A DNA stretch of 64,000 nt from Leifsonia shinshuensis (GTDB lineage: Bacteria > Actinomycetota > Actinomycetes > Actinomycetales > Microbacteriaceae), in the NCBI RefSeq assembly GCF_022606355.1, contig NZ_JAHHZQ010000002.1, positions 248,001 through 312,000 on the forward strand. Reading direction: 5' to 3'. The translations under genes were made by a program, and so were the position numbers. Shown one piece after another: positions 220 through 9,515 of this stretch (position 1 is the first letter of the stretch; every line of letters begins with the position of its first letter). Below the pieces are notes generated by a model that did no database searches, had not been told where the DNA came from, and worked only from the letters and a program-made list of their open reading frames with translations.

Positions 220-230
220 CTCGGCCGTCG

Positions 231-1511
231 TCAGGGGAGGTAGCGGTGGCGGGAGAGCGAGTCGGCGAGCATCTCCATGCCGGCGCCCGGCGTCAGCGGA
301 GCACGGTAGCGGCCGCCGACCAGCTCGACCGGCGCGACGAAGTGCTCGTGGAGGTGCTTGGTGTACTCGATCATCCGGCCGTCCCTGCTGCCGGAGACCG
401 CGACGAAGTCGAACATCGAGAAGTGCTGCACCGCCTCGCACAGCCCCACACCGCCCGCGTGCGGGCAGACCGGGATGCCGGACTTCGCGGCCAGCAGCAG
501 GATGGCGACGTTCTCGTTCACCCCCGCGACGCGCGTCGAGTCGATCTGCACGATCGCCGCGGCGTCGGCCTGCAGCAGCTGTTTGAACAGCACCCGGCTC
601 ATCGCGTGCTCCCCCGTCGCGATGCGTACGGGCGCCACCGCGCGCGCGATGGCGGCGTGGGCGAGCACGTCGTCGGGACTGGTGGGCTCCTCGACCCAGG
701 CGAGTTCGAACGGCTCGAGTGCGCGGATCCACTCGATCGCCTGGTCGCGGTCCCAGCGCTGGTTCGCGTCGATGGCGATCCGGATGTCGGGGCCGACCTC
801 GTCGCGGGCGATCCGGAGGCGACGCAGATCGTCCTCCAACCGGTCGCCGACCTTGAGTTTGATCTGCAGGAAGCCCTCGTCGACGGCCTCCCGTGCCAGT
901 CGGCGCAGCTTGTCGTCGGAGTAGCCGAGCCAGCCCGGTGTCGTCGTGTAACCGGGATAGCCGGTCGCCAGAAGCTCCGCCTCGCGCTCGGCACGGCCGG
1001 GCTCTGCCGCGCGCAGGATCGCGAGAGCGTCCTCCGGCGTCAGCGCGTCACTGAGGTAGCGGAAGTCGACCAGCGCGACCAGCTCCTCTGGCGTCATCCG
1101 CGCGAGGAGCTGCCACAGCGGGAGCCCGGCGCGCTTGGCCTTGAGATCCCAGAAGGCGTTGACCACCGCTCCGATCGCCATGTGCATCACGCCCTTCTCT
1201 GGGCCGAGCCAGCGCAGCTGCGAGTCGTAGACGAACTCGCGCCAGAAGCCGCCGAGGTCGCCGAGGATCGCCTCCACGTCACGGCCGATCACGCGCTGCG
1301 CCAGCGCTTCGATGGCCGCGACCTGCACGTCGTTGCCTCGGCCGATGGTGAAGACGAAGGAGTGGCCTTCCAGCCCGTCCGGAGCGTCGGTCCTCACGCG
1401 CAGGTAGGCGGCGGAGTAGTCGGGGTCGGGATTCATCGCGTCCGAGCCGTCGAGGAGCGCCGACGTCTCGAAGCGCACGTCCAGGGTCTCGAAGCCGATC
1501 ACGATACTCAT
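231..1511 (-). CDS. fucD: L-fuconate dehydratase (enolase superfamily)
   Basis: A 426-residue enolase-superfamily protein predicted to dehydrate L-fuconate to 2-keto-3-deoxy-L-fuconate in the cytosol. The KxK motif is at Lys218/Lys220, metal ligands are at Asp248, Glu274 and Glu301, and the general base His351 sits in a [11 protein letters not shown] segment. These are the same numbers as I recall for the characterised Xanthomonas FucD. The end, with [10 protein letters not shown] and [11 protein letters not shown], is also typical of the ENOSF1/FucD clade. The start at 1511 (MSIVIGF) is chosen because it reproduces this numbering; an ATG nine bases upstream at 1520 is possible. It is last in a minus-strand group after the GntR gene, with its own 138-bp upstream gap holding an operator-like motif. 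Confidence 0.92.
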
Positions 1512-1520
1512 AGGCAACAT

Positions 1521-1532
1521 CCTATTGGATAT
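1521..1532 (-). promoter_or_regulatory. Candidate GntR operator, copy 1
   Basis: Read on the minus strand this is ATATCCAATAGG, ten bases upstream of the preferred fucD start. The same 12-mer with one change is found at 4555-4566, in the divergent gap at the other end of the cluster. The near-palindromic core (CCWATAGG) suits a dimeric regulator, and the GntR-family gene at 1650-2366 is the obvious candidate. Binding is inferred. Confidence 0.5.
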
Positions 1533-1552
1533 AGCCATTGTGATGCCAGCCC

Positions 1553-1592
1553 GAACACACCCGCACACACCCGTGCGCACCCGTGCGCACAC
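1553..1592. repeat. Short CA/CG-rich imperfect tandem repeat
   Basis: In the gap between the GntR and fucD genes the plus strand runs through repeated ACACCCGCAC / ACACCCGTGCGC units. It is low-complexity sequence without a good coding frame. It may reflect slippage or a structured leader; no function is evident. Confidence 0.45.
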
Positions 1593-1649
1593 GAGAAAAC
1601 GCCCAAGAGGTCGTCAGGACCACGAACGCGATCGCGGGCCTCGCGTGAG

Positions 1650-2366
1650 CTAGCGGGCCTCGGCGGCCTTCAGGCTCGACGAGATGCGCTTGTACGACTT
1701 GGTGATGTGATCGAGCATGGCCTTCTCGGCCCGAGCCCCGTCCCCGGACCGCAGCGCCTCCAGCACCGCCTCGTGCTCTCCGGACGTCTCGTCGACGACA
1801 CCGTGCGTGAAGTAGATGCGGTACTGGTGCAGGTGCGGGCGCAGTCGCACGATCGCGTCCGCCAGCAGGCCGTTTCCGCAGTGCACCGCGATCAGGCGGT
1901 GGAACTCGGCGTCCTGGTTGGCGAAGTCCTTGTAGTCCTCGAACCGGTCGTCGCCGGTCTGCGACGCCTCGCCGCTGCGGTGCATGTCGTCGCACAGCCG
2001 CTCCAGCTGGTCGAGCGTCTCCGCGTCGATCTCGCCCGCCGCGTGGCGGGAGGCGTACGGCTCCAGCAGTCGCCGCATCTCGAAGAGCTCCCGGAGGCCG
2101 TCGCTGTCGAGCAGGGGAGCAGCGGTGTAGCCCTTGAGCGGCTTCTTAACCACGAGACCCTCGGACTCCAGGCGAGCGAGCGCCTCCCGCACCGGCGTCG
2201 GGGAGACGCCGAGCTGACGCGCGATCCCGTCGATGCTGGCACGGCTGCCCGGCTCGATCACCTGGTCCATGAGCAGCCCGAGCACAGCGTCGTAGACGTC
2301 GTCGGCCAGTGCGCGCCGGGCCGGCAGCACGTGCCGGCCGGCGGAGGGTTCGATGCTCATGTGCAC
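1650..2366 (-). CDS. GntR/FadR-family transcriptional regulator (FCD domain)
   Basis: A 238-residue regulator. The N-terminal winged helix-turn-helix (about residues 18-85) includes GIARQLGVSPTPVREALARLESEGLV, the GntR signature. The C-terminal all-helical FCD domain carries the usual metal-binding positions (EFHRL, RPHLH, EHEAV, LDHI). FCD regulators sense carboxylates or sugar acids, which suits a cluster encoding sugar-acid dehydratases. The gene lies inside the minus-strand cluster between the AKR and fucD. The likely operator is the ATATCCWATAGG motif at 1521-1532 and 4555-4566. The effector may be L-fuconate or a related aldonate; this is inferred from context. Confidence 0.9.
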   Translation of the reverse strand: MHMSIEPSAGRHVLPARRALADDVYDAVLGLLMDQVIEPGSRASIDGIARQLGVSPTPVREALARLESEGLVVKKPLKGYTAAPLLDSDGLRELFEMRRLLEPYASRHAAGEIDAETLDQLERLCDDMHRSGEASQTGDDRFEDYKDFANQDAEFHRLIAVHCGNGLLADAIVRLRPHLHQYRIYFTHGVVDETSGEHEAVLEALRSGDGARAEKAMLDHITKSYKRISSSLKAAEAR

Positions 2367-6188: not shown

Positions 6189-6437
6189 ATGACCGACTCG
6201 TTCGAAACCGTCACCATGTTCGGCGCCGACTGGTGCCGCGACTGCATCCGCTCCAAGGCCCTCCTCGACCGTCTCGGCGCCGACTATGAGTACATCGACC
6301 TCGTCGCGCGCCCGGAGGAGGCCGACCGCGCGCAGGCGATCAGCGGCCGCACCAACATCCCCGTGATCGTGTTCCCCGACGGCCGCCACCTGGTCGAGCC
6401 GACCGACCCCGAGCTCGAGGCGGCGCTGGCGCTCTAG
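6189..6437 (+). CDS. Glutaredoxin/mycoredoxin-like protein
   Basis: An 82-residue thioredoxin-fold protein with an N-terminal redox motif WCRDC (Cys-Arg-Asp-Cys), the cis-Pro segment TNIPVIVFPDG and the C-terminal Gly-less helix LVEPTDPELEAAL. In mycothiol-producing actinobacteria such proteins (mycoredoxins) reduce protein-mycothiol mixed disulfides. The active-site CRDC differs from the more common CxYC form, so the partner is uncertain. It starts 9 bases after the kinase stop. It ends only three bases before the convergent HelR-type gene stop, with no room for a conventional terminator. Confidence 0.85.
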   Translation: MTDSFETVTMFGADWCRDCIRSKALLDRLGADYEYIDLVARPEEADRAQAISGRTNIPVIVFPDGRHLVEPTDPELEAALAL

Positions 6438-6440
6438 CTG

Positions 6441-8627
6441 CTAGCCCAGCACCACCAGCTCCCGCGTCGATCGCGTCATCGCCACATAGTGGTCGACGGC
6501 GCCCGCGATCCCCTCACCGAAGGCCTCGGGGGCGACCAGCACGACCAGGTCGAACTCGAGCCCCTTCGACTGCGCGGGCGTGAGCACGCGCACACGATCG
6601 GAGCGCGGGACGACCGCCGCCACGGCATCCGTCTCGCCGTCGGCCGCGATGACGCAGCCGATCCCGGCCGGGTCGCCGGAGAGCCACGCGGCGACGATCG
6701 CGGCGAGGTCGCCACGCGTCCCGTGCACGACAGGGAGCCCACTCGTGCGCACCGACGTCGGCACGTTCGCGTCCGGGATGGCCGCCCGGATCACCGGCTC
6801 CGCCTCGGTCATGATCTCCTCCGGCGTGCGGTAGTTGATGCTCAACGTCGAGACCCGCGCGTCCGGGATCCCCACCCCAGCGAGCCTCGTCGACCATGCC
6901 TCCGTGAAGCCGTGCCGCGCCTGCGCCCGGTCGCCCACGATCGTGAAGCCGCGCGACGGACAGCGCCGCAGCAGCATCCTCCACTCGGCATCCGTGAGTT
7001 CCTGCGCCTCGTCCACGACGATGTGCGCGAACGGCCCGGCGAGCACGTCAGGATCGAGCGAGGGGAGCGCCGCCTCGTCGATCAGAGAGGTCTGCGCGTC
7101 CGACCCGCGCAGCATCGTCACGAGTCCCTCGCCGTCGTCGGCCGCGATCAGGTCGTCGACCACACGGTTCCTGCCCTCGCGCTCGAACGCGAGCACGGCC
7201 TCCCGCTCGCGACGCACGCGGTTCGCGGTCGGGTCGCCGATGCGCTGGCGCGCGGCGTCGAGCAGCGGGAGGTCGGAGAGCGTCCACGCGCGCGGGTCGT
7301 CGCGCTGCAGCAGCGCGACCTCCTCCGCGGTCAGCCCGGGTGCGCACGCCTGCAGGTAGGCGGGAACCGAGAACAGGTCGGCGAGCACGCCGGCCGGGTC
7401 GAGGAGCGGCCAGGCCCGGGTGAACGCGCTCCGCAGCGCGGCGTTCTGCGTGAGCTGACCGCGCAGGGCGCCCGCCGGGACGGAGTCTCCGGCCTTCGTC
7501 TCCAGGATCGTCAGCAACTCCTCCCACACCTCGTCGCGCGCTTCGTCGTGCGGGGTTGCGGCGCCGGCCACGTCGAACGCGTCCGCCCAGTCGCCGGGCG
7601 TGAGCGGGAGGTCGGCCCACTCGGTCTCGACGACCATCCCGCGCGAGGGCGGCACCTCGTAGTGGCGCACGGCCTGCTCGACGGCTGCGACCATCGCCGA
7701 CGACGCCTTGAGGCGGGCGACCTCCTCGTCGGCTTCGGTCCCGGCGGTCGCGCCTTCGGCGAGCAGGTCGCGCAGGGTGCAGAGCTGCACCCCTTCCTCC
7801 CCCAGGCTCGGGAGCACGTCGGACACGTACGCGAGGTACGCCGGGCTCGGTCCCACGAACAGCACGCCGCCGTGCCCGCGCGACAGCCGCGGGTCGGCGT
7901 ACAGCAGATAGGCGGCGCGGTGCAGCGCGACGACGGTCTTGCCCGTCCCTGGTCCGCCGTCCACGACGAGCGCGCCGCGGGAGCGATCGCGGATGATGGC
8001 GTCCTGATCGGCCTGGATGGTCGCGAGCACGTCGCGCATCCGCGGTGAGCGGCTCGCCCCGAGGCTCGCGATGAACGCGGACTGGTCGTCAAGCGCCGCG
8101 CGGGACGCTGCGTCGTCCAGCGCATCCGGGGCGAAGGCCTCGTCCCAGTAGTCGGTGACGCGACCGTTGGTCCACCGATAGCGCCGCCGGCTGACGAGCC
8201 CCATCGGGTCACCGAGGGTCGCGCCGAAGAACGGCTCGGCGGCGGGCGACCTCCAGTCGACGAGCAGCTTGCGACCGTCGCCGTCGGTGAGCCCGAAGCG
8301 CCCGATGTAGGTCGTCTCCTCGCTCGCCGCACCGCCGTCAGGGGCGGCCGGGACCATGCGCCCGAGGCAGACGTCGCGCCCGAACCGGCCGAGCGCGCGC
8401 AGCCGGGCGCTCAGGCGGCGGACCTCGGTGTCGCGGTCGAGCGCCTTCTGGCCGTGCCCTCCCGGGGCACGCAACTCGGCGGTGAGCTGATCGGACAGCT
8501 CCGCGATGGTCCGGCGGAGGGTCTCGTCGATGGCGGCGAAGTGCTGCTCATCCTGGGCGATGAGGGCGGGATCGCCTTTGAAGCGGAGATTTTCGGGCAG
8601 GGCGAAGGCAGTGGAGGTCGCAGTCAC
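6441..8627 (-). CDS. HelD/HelR-type RNA polymerase-associated UvrD-like ATPase
   Basis: About 728 residues of a superfamily-1 helicase-like ATPase. Walker A GGPGTGKTVVALHRAA is near residue 225, the DEAQ Walker B (IVVDEAQELTDAEW) near residue 538, and the UvrD-type C-terminal motif (YVAMTRSTREL) closes it. The N-terminus (DEQHFAAIDETLRR) and the TYIGRFGLTDGDGRKLLVDWRSPAAEPFF block are characteristic of HelD proteins, which recycle stalled RNA polymerase; the HelR subgroup displaces rifamycins. A rifamycin-associated element sits just upstream, supporting HelR. The GTG at 8627 is preferred because the longer frame to 8702 would translate through that element. No clear ribosome binding site is seen. 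Confidence 0.88.
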   Translation of the reverse strand: MTATSTAFALPENLRFKGDPALIAQDEQHFAAIDETLRRTIAELSDQLTAELRAPGGHGQKALDRDTEVRRLSARLRALGRFGRDVCLGRMVPAAPDGGAASEETTYIGRFGLTDGDGRKLLVDWRSPAAEPFFGATLGDPMGLVSRRRYRWTNGRVTDYWDEAFAPDALDDAASRAALDDQSAFIASLGASRSPRMRDVLATIQADQDAIIRDRSRGALVVDGGPGTGKTVVALHRAAYLLYADPRLSRGHGGVLFVGPSPAYLAYVSDVLPSLGEEGVQLCTLRDLLAEGATAGTEADEEVARLKASSAMVAAVEQAVRHYEVPPSRGMVVETEWADLPLTPGDWADAFDVAGAATPHDEARDEVWEELLTILETKAGDSVPAGALRGQLTQNAALRSAFTRAWPLLDPAGVLADLFSVPAYLQACAPGLTAEEVALLQRDDPRAWTLSDLPLLDAARQRIGDPTANRVRREREAVLAFEREGRNRVVDDLIAADDGEGLVTMLRGSDAQTSLIDEAALPSLDPDVLAGPFAHIVVDEAQELTDAEWRMLLRRCPSRGFTIVGDRAQARHGFTEAWSTRLAGVGIPDARVSTLSINYRTPEEIMTEAEPVIRAAIPDANVPTSVRTSGLPVVHGTRGDLAAIVAAWLSGDPAGIGCVIAADGETDAVAAVVPRSDRVRVLTPAQSKGLEFDLVVLVAPEAFGEGIAGAVDHYVAMTRSTRELVVLG

Positions 8628-8652
8628 GATCGTCGATTCTGCGCCCCCACCA

Positions 8653-8671
8653 CCCCCTTGCCGCAAGCCCC
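8653..8671 (-). promoter_or_regulatory. Rifamycin-associated element (RAE) upstream of the HelR-type gene
   Basis: On the minus strand the 19-mer GGGGCTTGCGGCAAGGGGG lies 26 bases upstream of the helicase start. From memory, the published RAE consensus is GGGGCTTGCGGCAAGGCCC, so 16 of 19 positions match, including the whole CTTGCGGCAAG palindrome. RAEs precede rifamycin-inactivating genes and helR in actinomycetes and mediate induction by rifamycins. Confidence 0.8.
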
Positions 8672-8705
8672 GCCCCGTCGCATATCCTGGAATTGCAGGC
8701 ACACG

Positions 8706-8745
8706 CCGCCGAGCACGCGAACTTTCCGCGTAGTCGGCGGTTTTT
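8706..8745. terminator. Hairpin with T-tract between MBL-fold gene and helicase gene
   Basis: The arms are CCGCCGAGCACGCG (8706-8719) and CGCGTAGTCGGCGG (8727-8740), followed on the plus strand by TTTTT. The upstream minus-strand gene (8771-9400) would read into it before the helicase promoter, so it probably separates the two units. In that direction the T-tract is on the entry side, so termination would rely on the stem alone. Confidence 0.45.
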
Positions 8746-8770
8746 CACTGATTTCGGGCGTACTCGCGGG

Positions 8771-9400
8771 CTACGCGGTCAGGCGGGCGGGGGCGCCGTG
8801 ACCGGGGCAGACGAGCCGCGGGGTCGAGGCAGTGAGCGCGGAGAGCGTCGCGTCGGCGGCTGGGCGGTCACTGATCAGGAAGCCGGGGAAGTGTACGAGC
8901 CGACCCTTCGAGACGAGAGCGGCATCGCCGATGAAGGCGACCCCGCGCCAGCGCACGATGTGATGGCCGGGTGTGTGGCCCGGCGCCGGCTCCGCCACGA
9001 CCGCTGGAGCGATCTGCACGCCGGTGGTGCCCGGCAGCGCGGTCAGCTCGGGAAGCTCTGCACGTCCCAGCCACCCCGACCGGAACATCGCGCGACGCAT
9101 CCGCGTCGGCGCCTCGGTGTCGCCGCGAAGGATGCGGATGTCGTGGTCGCCCAGCCAGACTCTGGCGTCGGTCGCGCGCTGAACGGCGGTCGCACCCCCG
9201 ACATGGTCGGGGTCGTAGTGCGTGAGCACGATGTCGGTGAGCTTCGGGATGCGCGCAGCGGACAGCTCCTCGACCACGGCGTCCGCGCTCGAGGGCAACC
9301 CGGTGTCGACGAGGACGGCCCGGTCGTCCTCCTCGATCAGGTAGGCGTTGCCGCCGCGGGTGGAAGTCAGCCGGTGGACCCCGGGGATCACGTCGCGCAT
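8771..9400 (-). CDS. MBL-fold metallo-hydrolase
   Basis: A 209-residue metallo-beta-lactamase-fold hydrolase starting at MRDVIPGVHRLTS. The metal motif THYDPDHVGG is near residue 65, followed by PAPGHTPGHHIVRW, FIGDAAL and a closing VCPGHGAP, so all zinc-binding histidines and the bridging Asp are present. Such stand-alone proteins include glyoxalase II-like thioesterases, lactonases and hydrolases of unknown substrate. The start at 9400 is preferred over upstream codons because family members begin with this strand. It is divergent from the AKR at 9516. No substrate can be named. Confidence 0.88.
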   Translation of the reverse strand: MRDVIPGVHRLTSTRGGNAYLIEEDDRAVLVDTGLPSSADAVVEELSAARIPKLTDIVLTHYDPDHVGGATAVQRATDARVWLGDHDIRILRGDTEAPTRMRRAMFRSGWLGRAELPELTALPGTTGVQIAPAVVAEPAPGHTPGHHIVRWRGVAFIGDAALVSKGRLVHFPGFLISDRPAADATLSALTASTPRLVCPGHGAPARLTA

Positions 9401-9515
9401 GAGTGGGATGCTAGCCCGCGTACGCGCTGCTGACGTGCGATCCATCACCGCCGGCGCACAATCCCATCACGACCTCCTGTTGGACTTCTCGCCGCGCCGG
9501 GCGGAGGCTGGCGGC

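Follow-up and report, generated by a model that had tools for sequence, protein, structure and literature searches.

The window, that is, the whole 64,000-nucleotide stretch of Leifsonia shinshuensis DNA analyzed here, carries on its minus strand a helR gene preceded by a rifamycin-associated element (RAE), with promoter-like features on both sides of the element (Table 1). HelR and HelD proteins displace rifampicin from RNA polymerase, and genes behind an RAE are induced by the drug through a mechanism left unexplained in the portions covered of two studies, from 2022 and 2026 (PMC10719064, PMC12802891). A glutaredoxin-family gene (PF00462) lies tail to tail with helR, 3 bp from its stop codon; upstream of helR and on the same strand is a gene for a metallo-beta-lactamase-fold hydrolase (PF00753), the best NCBIfam match of which is a beta-lactamase model at 46.6, far below the cut-off of 240.

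Table 1. Genes and observed or proposed sequence features around helR (positions in the window)
Feature	Position	Strand	Remarks
Glutaredoxin-family gene	6189-6437	+	
helR	6441-8627	-	ATPase for recycling of RNA polymerase / protection from rifamycin; 728 aa from a GTG start; coordinates include the stop codon
Start codon	8625-8627	-	GTG, 8 nt past the -10 box; leaderless or nearly leaderless mRNA predicted
Proposed sense (helR) -10, CAGAAT	8636-8641	-	19-nt spacer
RAE 19-mer, GGGGCTTGCGGCAAGGGGG	8653-8671	-	Exact, unique in the window
RAE core, CTTGCCGCAAG	8657-8667	+	Inside the 19-mer
Proposed divergent -35, TTGCCG	8658-8663	+	Other RAE half; position checked
Proposed sense (helR) -35, TTGCGG	8661-8666	-	Inside the RAE; position checked
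Proposed divergent -10, TATCCT	8683-8688	+	19-nt spacer
Predicted divergent short RNA	8695-8746	+	5' end inferred; terminator-like hairpin and T-run
Hairpin stem	8705-8712 / 8734-8741	+	Followed by TTTTT
Metallo-beta-lactamase-fold hydrolase gene	8771-9403	-	

An earlier note on this DNA had described the gene as HelD/HelR-like, and the 728-residue product indeed scored 1132.9 bits against the NCBIfam profile motor_HelR (NF041254), the cut-off of which is 750, placing it within the HelR family, the Class II HelD proteins of actinobacteria. Its nearest solved structure is HelD of Mycobacterium smegmatis (6YXU, 311 bits). In an alignment of 61 proteins, which covers the loop check that the note had proposed, the primary-channel loop with an acidic tip, which reaches the RNA polymerase active site, was found to be kept. 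In the match to the M. smegmatis structure, read by eye, an Asp aligns with Asp485 and an Ala with Gln490. A gap was seen at the loop position in 9 of 10 HelD paralogues from the family, one of the same genome included, with L222 as the exception. The housekeeping HelD paralogue of this genome (G000 C7:323646-325820) belongs to the same superfamily, scoring 455.3 bits against NF041254, but unlike the window HelR it lacks the loop tip, and, unlike the window helR, its gene is preceded by no RAE core within 1 kb (closest site at 2 mismatches, L209). The family paralogues at L214-L221 and L223 are without the active-site loop tip common to M. smegmatis-type HelD and HelR, and it is possible that such loop-less proteins form a third functional type.

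The 19-mer that the note had placed 26 bases upstream of the HelR gene was found exactly there, with GTG 8627 standing 26 bases downstream of it, and it is the sole window site at up to 3 mismatches, shuffled sequences averaging 0.07 sites. In the whole 4.78-Mb (4,775,750-base) genome, the core CTTGCNGCAAG occurs at 2 sites, and its reversed pattern is found at 9. The second core copy, at C1:1283042, lies upstream of a rifampin-monooxygenase-like open reading frame (L210:3501-4964 (-), G000 C1) that falls just short of the rifampin monooxygenase cut-off (790.9 bits versus 800); because one gene is helR and the other is rifampin-monooxygenase-like, both core copies precede rifamycin-resistance-type genes. 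We derived a reference palindrome, GGGNCTTGCNGCAAGNCCC, from related loci. The window element matches its inner part, with the last (right) arm reading GGG in place of CCC, so that the description of the element as near-perfect holds for the inner part and core and fails for that arm. The same full arm flip was seen in 1 of the 51 Microbacteriaceae HelR upstream regions with an RAE (L027), and a half flip in another 1 of the 51 (L028). As a 19-bp palindrome upstream of the rifamycin-resistance gene helR, with an exact core and one outer arm altered, the element is an RAE.

A profile search found HelR above the cut-off in at least 58 of 299 sampled genomes of the family, the window genome included, and in 2 of the 5 congeners among the matches listed (G178 and G267). 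For analysis of upstream regions, 58 HelR loci were used, comprising 57 other genomes above the cut-off and G281, which is below it; these loci were chosen by HelR and not by the RAE. The element was present at 51 of the 58, with an exact core in 45 and one mismatch in 6, and was not recognizable in 7; the 1 kb examined upstream of the HelR gene of the congener G267 (L204) had no core even at 2 mismatches. No RAE core was found upstream of family HelD paralogues (L209 and L211-L213), where the best sites had 2 to 3 mismatches. In a class-wide search of 296 genomes, an exact core preceded 7 of 13 genes above the mycobacterial HelD cut-off among the matches listed, while none of 17 next-best, lower-scoring HelDs in the matches listed had a core at up to 1 mismatch. 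The earlier note had called for a search upstream of orthologues, and these counts, in the family, in the mycobacterial HelD/HelR clade, and among lower-scoring HelDs, bear out its expectation that the motif is conserved. They do not make the finding new for Microbacteriaceae, as that note had supposed, since Larsen et al. (2021; PMC8655204) already list two genes of this same bacterial family, Microbacterium mip_00070 and mhos_01135, among the "(potential) helR variants" of an RAE-bearing group, the likeness here being by listing and not by sequence. The gene and its RAE are a further example of a type already described, and the lineage too has been reported before. It is very improbable that the window RAE is a relic, i.e., that the gene is real and the element is no longer inducible through its altered outer arm. 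The right arm reads GGG, and such flips are rare; a HelR gene of the same genus (L204 of G267) has no recognizable RAE; against this, the core, both boxes, both spacings, the start codon and the terminator-like hairpin are all in place in the window.

That an RAE lies upstream of helR was correct in the note, but its symmetric flanking by two promoter-like boxes had been missed. In the family set, a divergent TANNNT box stands 19 nt from the RAE hexamer in 46 of the 51 modules and a sense box of the CAGAAT kind at 19 nt in all 51; of the 5 modules without a divergent TANNNT, four read GATAAT or CATAAT, and L200 shows no fit. TANNNT occurs additionally at 17 nt in 5 of the 51. In the divergent box, positions 1, 2 and 6 are constant in 47, 51, and 50 of 51 modules, respectively, and positions 3 to 5 are variable; constancy at these three positions alone is the signature of a -10. 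The sense box has invariant positions 2 and 6 in all 51 modules, and C or G, never T, at position 1. A larger set (n = 64), with L082 and L145 left out as sites at which TANNNT matches on either strand, gave C 60, G 3, A 1 and T 0 at this position. The mycobacterial set has a T at sense position 1 in 1 of 7 modules (L227) and a divergent TANNNT at 19 nt in 6 of 7. The sense box therefore keeps away from consensus, and the divergent box is TA...T. In the class-wide HelD sample, the divergent strand of L229, L230, and L233 carries a recurring CCTTGACA-like stretch farther upstream; it is absent from L226 and L227 and may be an additional promoter element.

An unbiased scan for GGNCTTGCNGCAAGNCC returned at least 118 stretches, from which 81 sites of 80 titled loci were used, so the counts that follow are those of a sample, with sites labeled actinobacterial or other by hand from their titles. 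On the strand opposite the gene, TANNNT stood exactly 19 nt from TTGCNG at 45 of the 47 actinobacterial RAE sites among the matches listed, the misses being L077 and L111; of the remaining 20 spacers between 10 and 30 nt that were tried, 19 gave no such box at these sites, and 25 nt gave it at 1 site. The looser pattern [CG]ANNNT, on either strand, was present at 19 nt in 43 of the 47 sites listed, and also at 21 nt (13 sites) and 25 nt (23 sites). Among the 34 non-actinobacterial sites listed, 2 had TANNNT at 19 nt (L082 and L084). Both are contigs labeled Gemmatimonadaceae MAG, with RAE modules adjoining rox-like genes outside Actinomycetota, through either horizontal transfer or mis-binning of contigs. 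A chance origin of the window element was rejected, given the shuffle average of 0.07, the presence of only 2 cores genome-wide, and the box at a fixed 19 nt in 45 of 47 listed sites. A generic promoter and terminator scan returned no site at the helR RAE, because it needs TTGACA/TATAAT-like hexamers with a 16- to 18-nt spacing and accepts no loop above 8. A sense -10 box upstream of the RAE, corresponding to a P1, was also sought and rejected, as there is no TANNNT on the sense strand from the GTG to 8800.

The outer G/C arms of the RAE, which lie outside the -35 hexamers, are themselves conserved, with 0 A/T in 408 cells of the family set. When 30 CTTGCNGCAAG sites from family genomes were compared, 25 had no box pair, and none of these 25 had both GGG and CCC arms; of the 5 sites with a box pair, 4 had both arms.

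Among 119 scanned sites in the matches listed, the divergent box was present at 66. A rifamycin-resistance-type gene was found on the sense side at 64 of these 66 boxed sites versus 3 of the 53 unboxed sites listed. The references for typing the genes were those of the window and of the same-sample loci L086, L105, L119, L109, L066, and L065; each reference therefore necessarily matches its own site, and the single MFS case likewise holds by construction. The sense genes at the 64 sites were rox (27), helR (23), arr (5), rph (4), rgt (4) and an MFS transporter gene (1). No rifamycin-resistance-type gene was found at the boxed sites L102 and L145, both near locus ends; the 3 unboxed sites with such a gene were L080, a distant PEP-synthase-like match, L135 and L147. 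Ten proteins, nine from RAE-preceded genes elsewhere and one from this genome, were further checked against family models. Cut-offs were passed by Rox of L086, Arr of L105 and L073, Rph of L119 and L127, and HelD/HelR of L065 and L122, and missed by Rgt of L109 (507.6 versus 800), the MFS protein of L066 and the rox-like gene product of this genome. The MFS gene, at 229-1794 (+) of L066 from Actinoplanes aureus, encodes a DHA2/EmrB-like, efflux-type transporter behind a complete RAE module, and scores below all cut-offs; its product is a candidate rifamycin exporter.

On the sense side, a GTG stands at the window's offset, a fixed 14 nt from the start of the sense box, in 29 of the 51 family modules; in other modules, the start codon lies about 40 to 60 nt further on. 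Such a constant distance between box and start codon is the pattern expected of a leaderless mRNA, and the helR mRNA of the window is likewise predicted to be leaderless or nearly so. The preference of the earlier note for GTG 8627 over a longer frame agrees both with this spacing and with the HelR profile match, which begins at residue 8 of the frame starting there. The longer frame, from 8702, was rejected because it crosses the RAE and adds 25 residues outside the family profile.

On the divergent side, the window has a G+C-rich hairpin followed by a T-run, which scored as an intrinsic terminator (L002); it folds at -24.7 kcal/mol (z -4.15), and none of 200 shuffled sequences folds as well. 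It lies outside the stricter loop limit of the generic terminator scan (3 to 8), and begins 16 nt past the divergent box, not 6. We examined 104 modules chosen for having both boxes, and thus informative on the hairpin only. A hairpin with a T-run was present on the divergent strand in 35 of these versus 4.55 in shuffles (maximum, 8); as controls, the opposite strand of these modules had one in 2 cases of 104, and the sequence downstream on the sense side in 1 of 104. Without the T-run condition, a hairpin near the start was found in 62 of 104 modules versus 23.0 in shuffles (maximum, 33), and 34 of these 62 begin at the seventh base past the divergent box. With the hairpin at about the expected transcription start, the predicted divergent RNA would be little beyond a terminator. 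Even by the loose count, 42 of the 104 modules have no hairpin, and none is present at the second RAE of this genome (L001). The divergent RNA as a member of a known RNA family was rejected, since Rfam 15 gave no match in 16 loci at gathering scores and none in window positions 8400-9000 at E values up to 1.

These data also bear on a reading in which the TANNNT and CAGAAT-like boxes belong to the periphery of an extended regulator site instead of being -10 boxes. A2 and T6 are symmetric at ±22 and ±26 from the center, as such a site would have them, but the two sides have different bases at position 1 and in the middle of the box, a GTG stands at a fixed distance on one side and a hairpin with a T-run on the other, and a mapped M. 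smegmatis promoter has the RAE as its -35 (PMC10719064). We consider this reading improbable.

We instead favor, at a probability of about one half, a reading in which a weak sense promoter and a stronger divergent promoter use the RAE as a common -35 region, and rifamycin tips the balance between them. The promoter geometry, comprising both boxes, their fixed 19-nt spacing and their conservation, is well supported by the sequence comparisons above; that both boxes are live promoters in competition, with rifamycin acting on the polymerase as the signal, is what we infer from it. The sense promoter, TTGCGG-19-CAGAAT, would be weak and would yield the leaderless helR mRNA, and the divergent promoter, TTGCCG-19-TATCCT, with its better -10 box, would yield a short RNA closing in the terminator-like hairpin. 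Because the two TTGC half-sites overlap, polymerase at one promoter would bar polymerase from the other. As long as no drug is present, the divergent promoter would prevail, its transcripts being wasted; low rifamycin would disable mainly this busier promoter, and polymerase would move to helR, the product of which would enter RNA polymerase and displace rifamycin, as published for relatives. A release of the sense promoter of this sort has been argued for helD of Bacillus subtilis (PMC12802891); it is the weak point of the model, because the geometry differs from that in B. subtilis, where a steric clash abolished induction. Several observations count against the shared -35 model: the conserved G/C arms beyond the hexamers are unexplained by -35 boxes alone, the published M. 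smegmatis sense promoter P1 (PMC10719064) has no place in it, the hairpin is not universal, is absent at the second RAE and begins late in the window, and the 17-nt boxes in 5 of 51 modules and the lack of a site in the generic scan fit it poorly. Its extension to Actinomycetota as a whole, where the RAE would primarily be a symmetric shared -35 and not an operator, linking a resistance-gene promoter kept weak on purpose to a stronger divergent one that runs straight into a terminator, and the polymerase would be the rifamycin sensor with no dedicated regulator, is offered only tentatively.

Nearly as likely as the shared -35 model is that a regulator binds the conserved outer arms, the RAE then being the operator of a dimeric, rifamycin-responsive protein that covers both -35 hexamers and controls both promoters jointly, with the divergent RNA as a by-product or serving the upstream side. 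This is the published view, with the factor unknown in the passages concerned (PMC12802891; PMC10719064). It agrees with the reach of the palindrome past the two -35 hexamers into conserved GGGG/CCCC arms, and with the reported loss of induction in Mycobacterium abscessus upon loss of half of the RAE (PMC10719064). No factor is named in the literature covered, however, and the arms have C replaced by G, or G by C, in L027, L190, L193, mostly L200, and the window, which should not occur under sequence-specific contacts; nor does a regulator account for the constant 19-nt distance of both boxes or for the contrast between the -10 boxes. Sense and divergent transcripts moving oppositely would indicate promoter competition, and transcripts moving together a regulator, so that the fixed geometry common to helR, rox, arr, rph, and rgt makes the question of rifamycin sensing directly measurable. 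The two-promoter geometry is also a sharper signature than the 19-mer for finding rifamycin-response genes. A symmetric promoter geometry with a terminated divergent RNA seems to be a new feature of the RAE: no divergent RAE promoter was found in the literature listings and passages searched, and one may still have been published.

Among known systems, the closest are SVEN_6029 of Streptomyces venezuelae and MAB_3189c of M. abscessus, genes of the same function class with a 19-bp RAE directly upstream that overlaps the -35 of the gene's promoter, as proposed here for helR; in M. smegmatis, likewise, the -35 of promoter P2 overlaps the RAE (PMC10719064). The window helR differs from the two in its predicted leaderless mRNA and in one flipped RAE arm, and a conserved divergent promoter with a terminated RNA, as in the window, is not mentioned for them in the portion of that study covered. 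In M. smegmatis, rox, the gene for the HelD helicase and arr are among the genes most induced by rifampicin, independently of SigB (PMC6529629), and from such published work on relatives, rifamycin induction of the window helR would follow by analogy. In B. subtilis, a strong antisense and a weak sense promoter sense rifampicin at helD and pps, and thereby control HelD and a rifampicin-modifying enzyme; the antisense spacers are 19 bp in both (PMC12802891). A stronger antisense promoter, a weaker sense promoter and the 19-bp antisense spacer are features that the window module shares as proposed. The B. subtilis promoters, however, converge 39 bp apart, and elongating polymerases collide, whereas those proposed here point away from each other out of a common -35; in B. 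subtilis, a shortening by 17 bp, designed to produce a steric clash, abolished induction (PMC12802891), and therefore exclusion alone may not give induction. That paper treats RAE genes as a separate case, for which it has no explanation. By its type of arrangement, two convergent promoters 45 to 100 bp apart, the window module is no alarm of the B. subtilis kind, since its promoters diverge, but it may nevertheless work like one.
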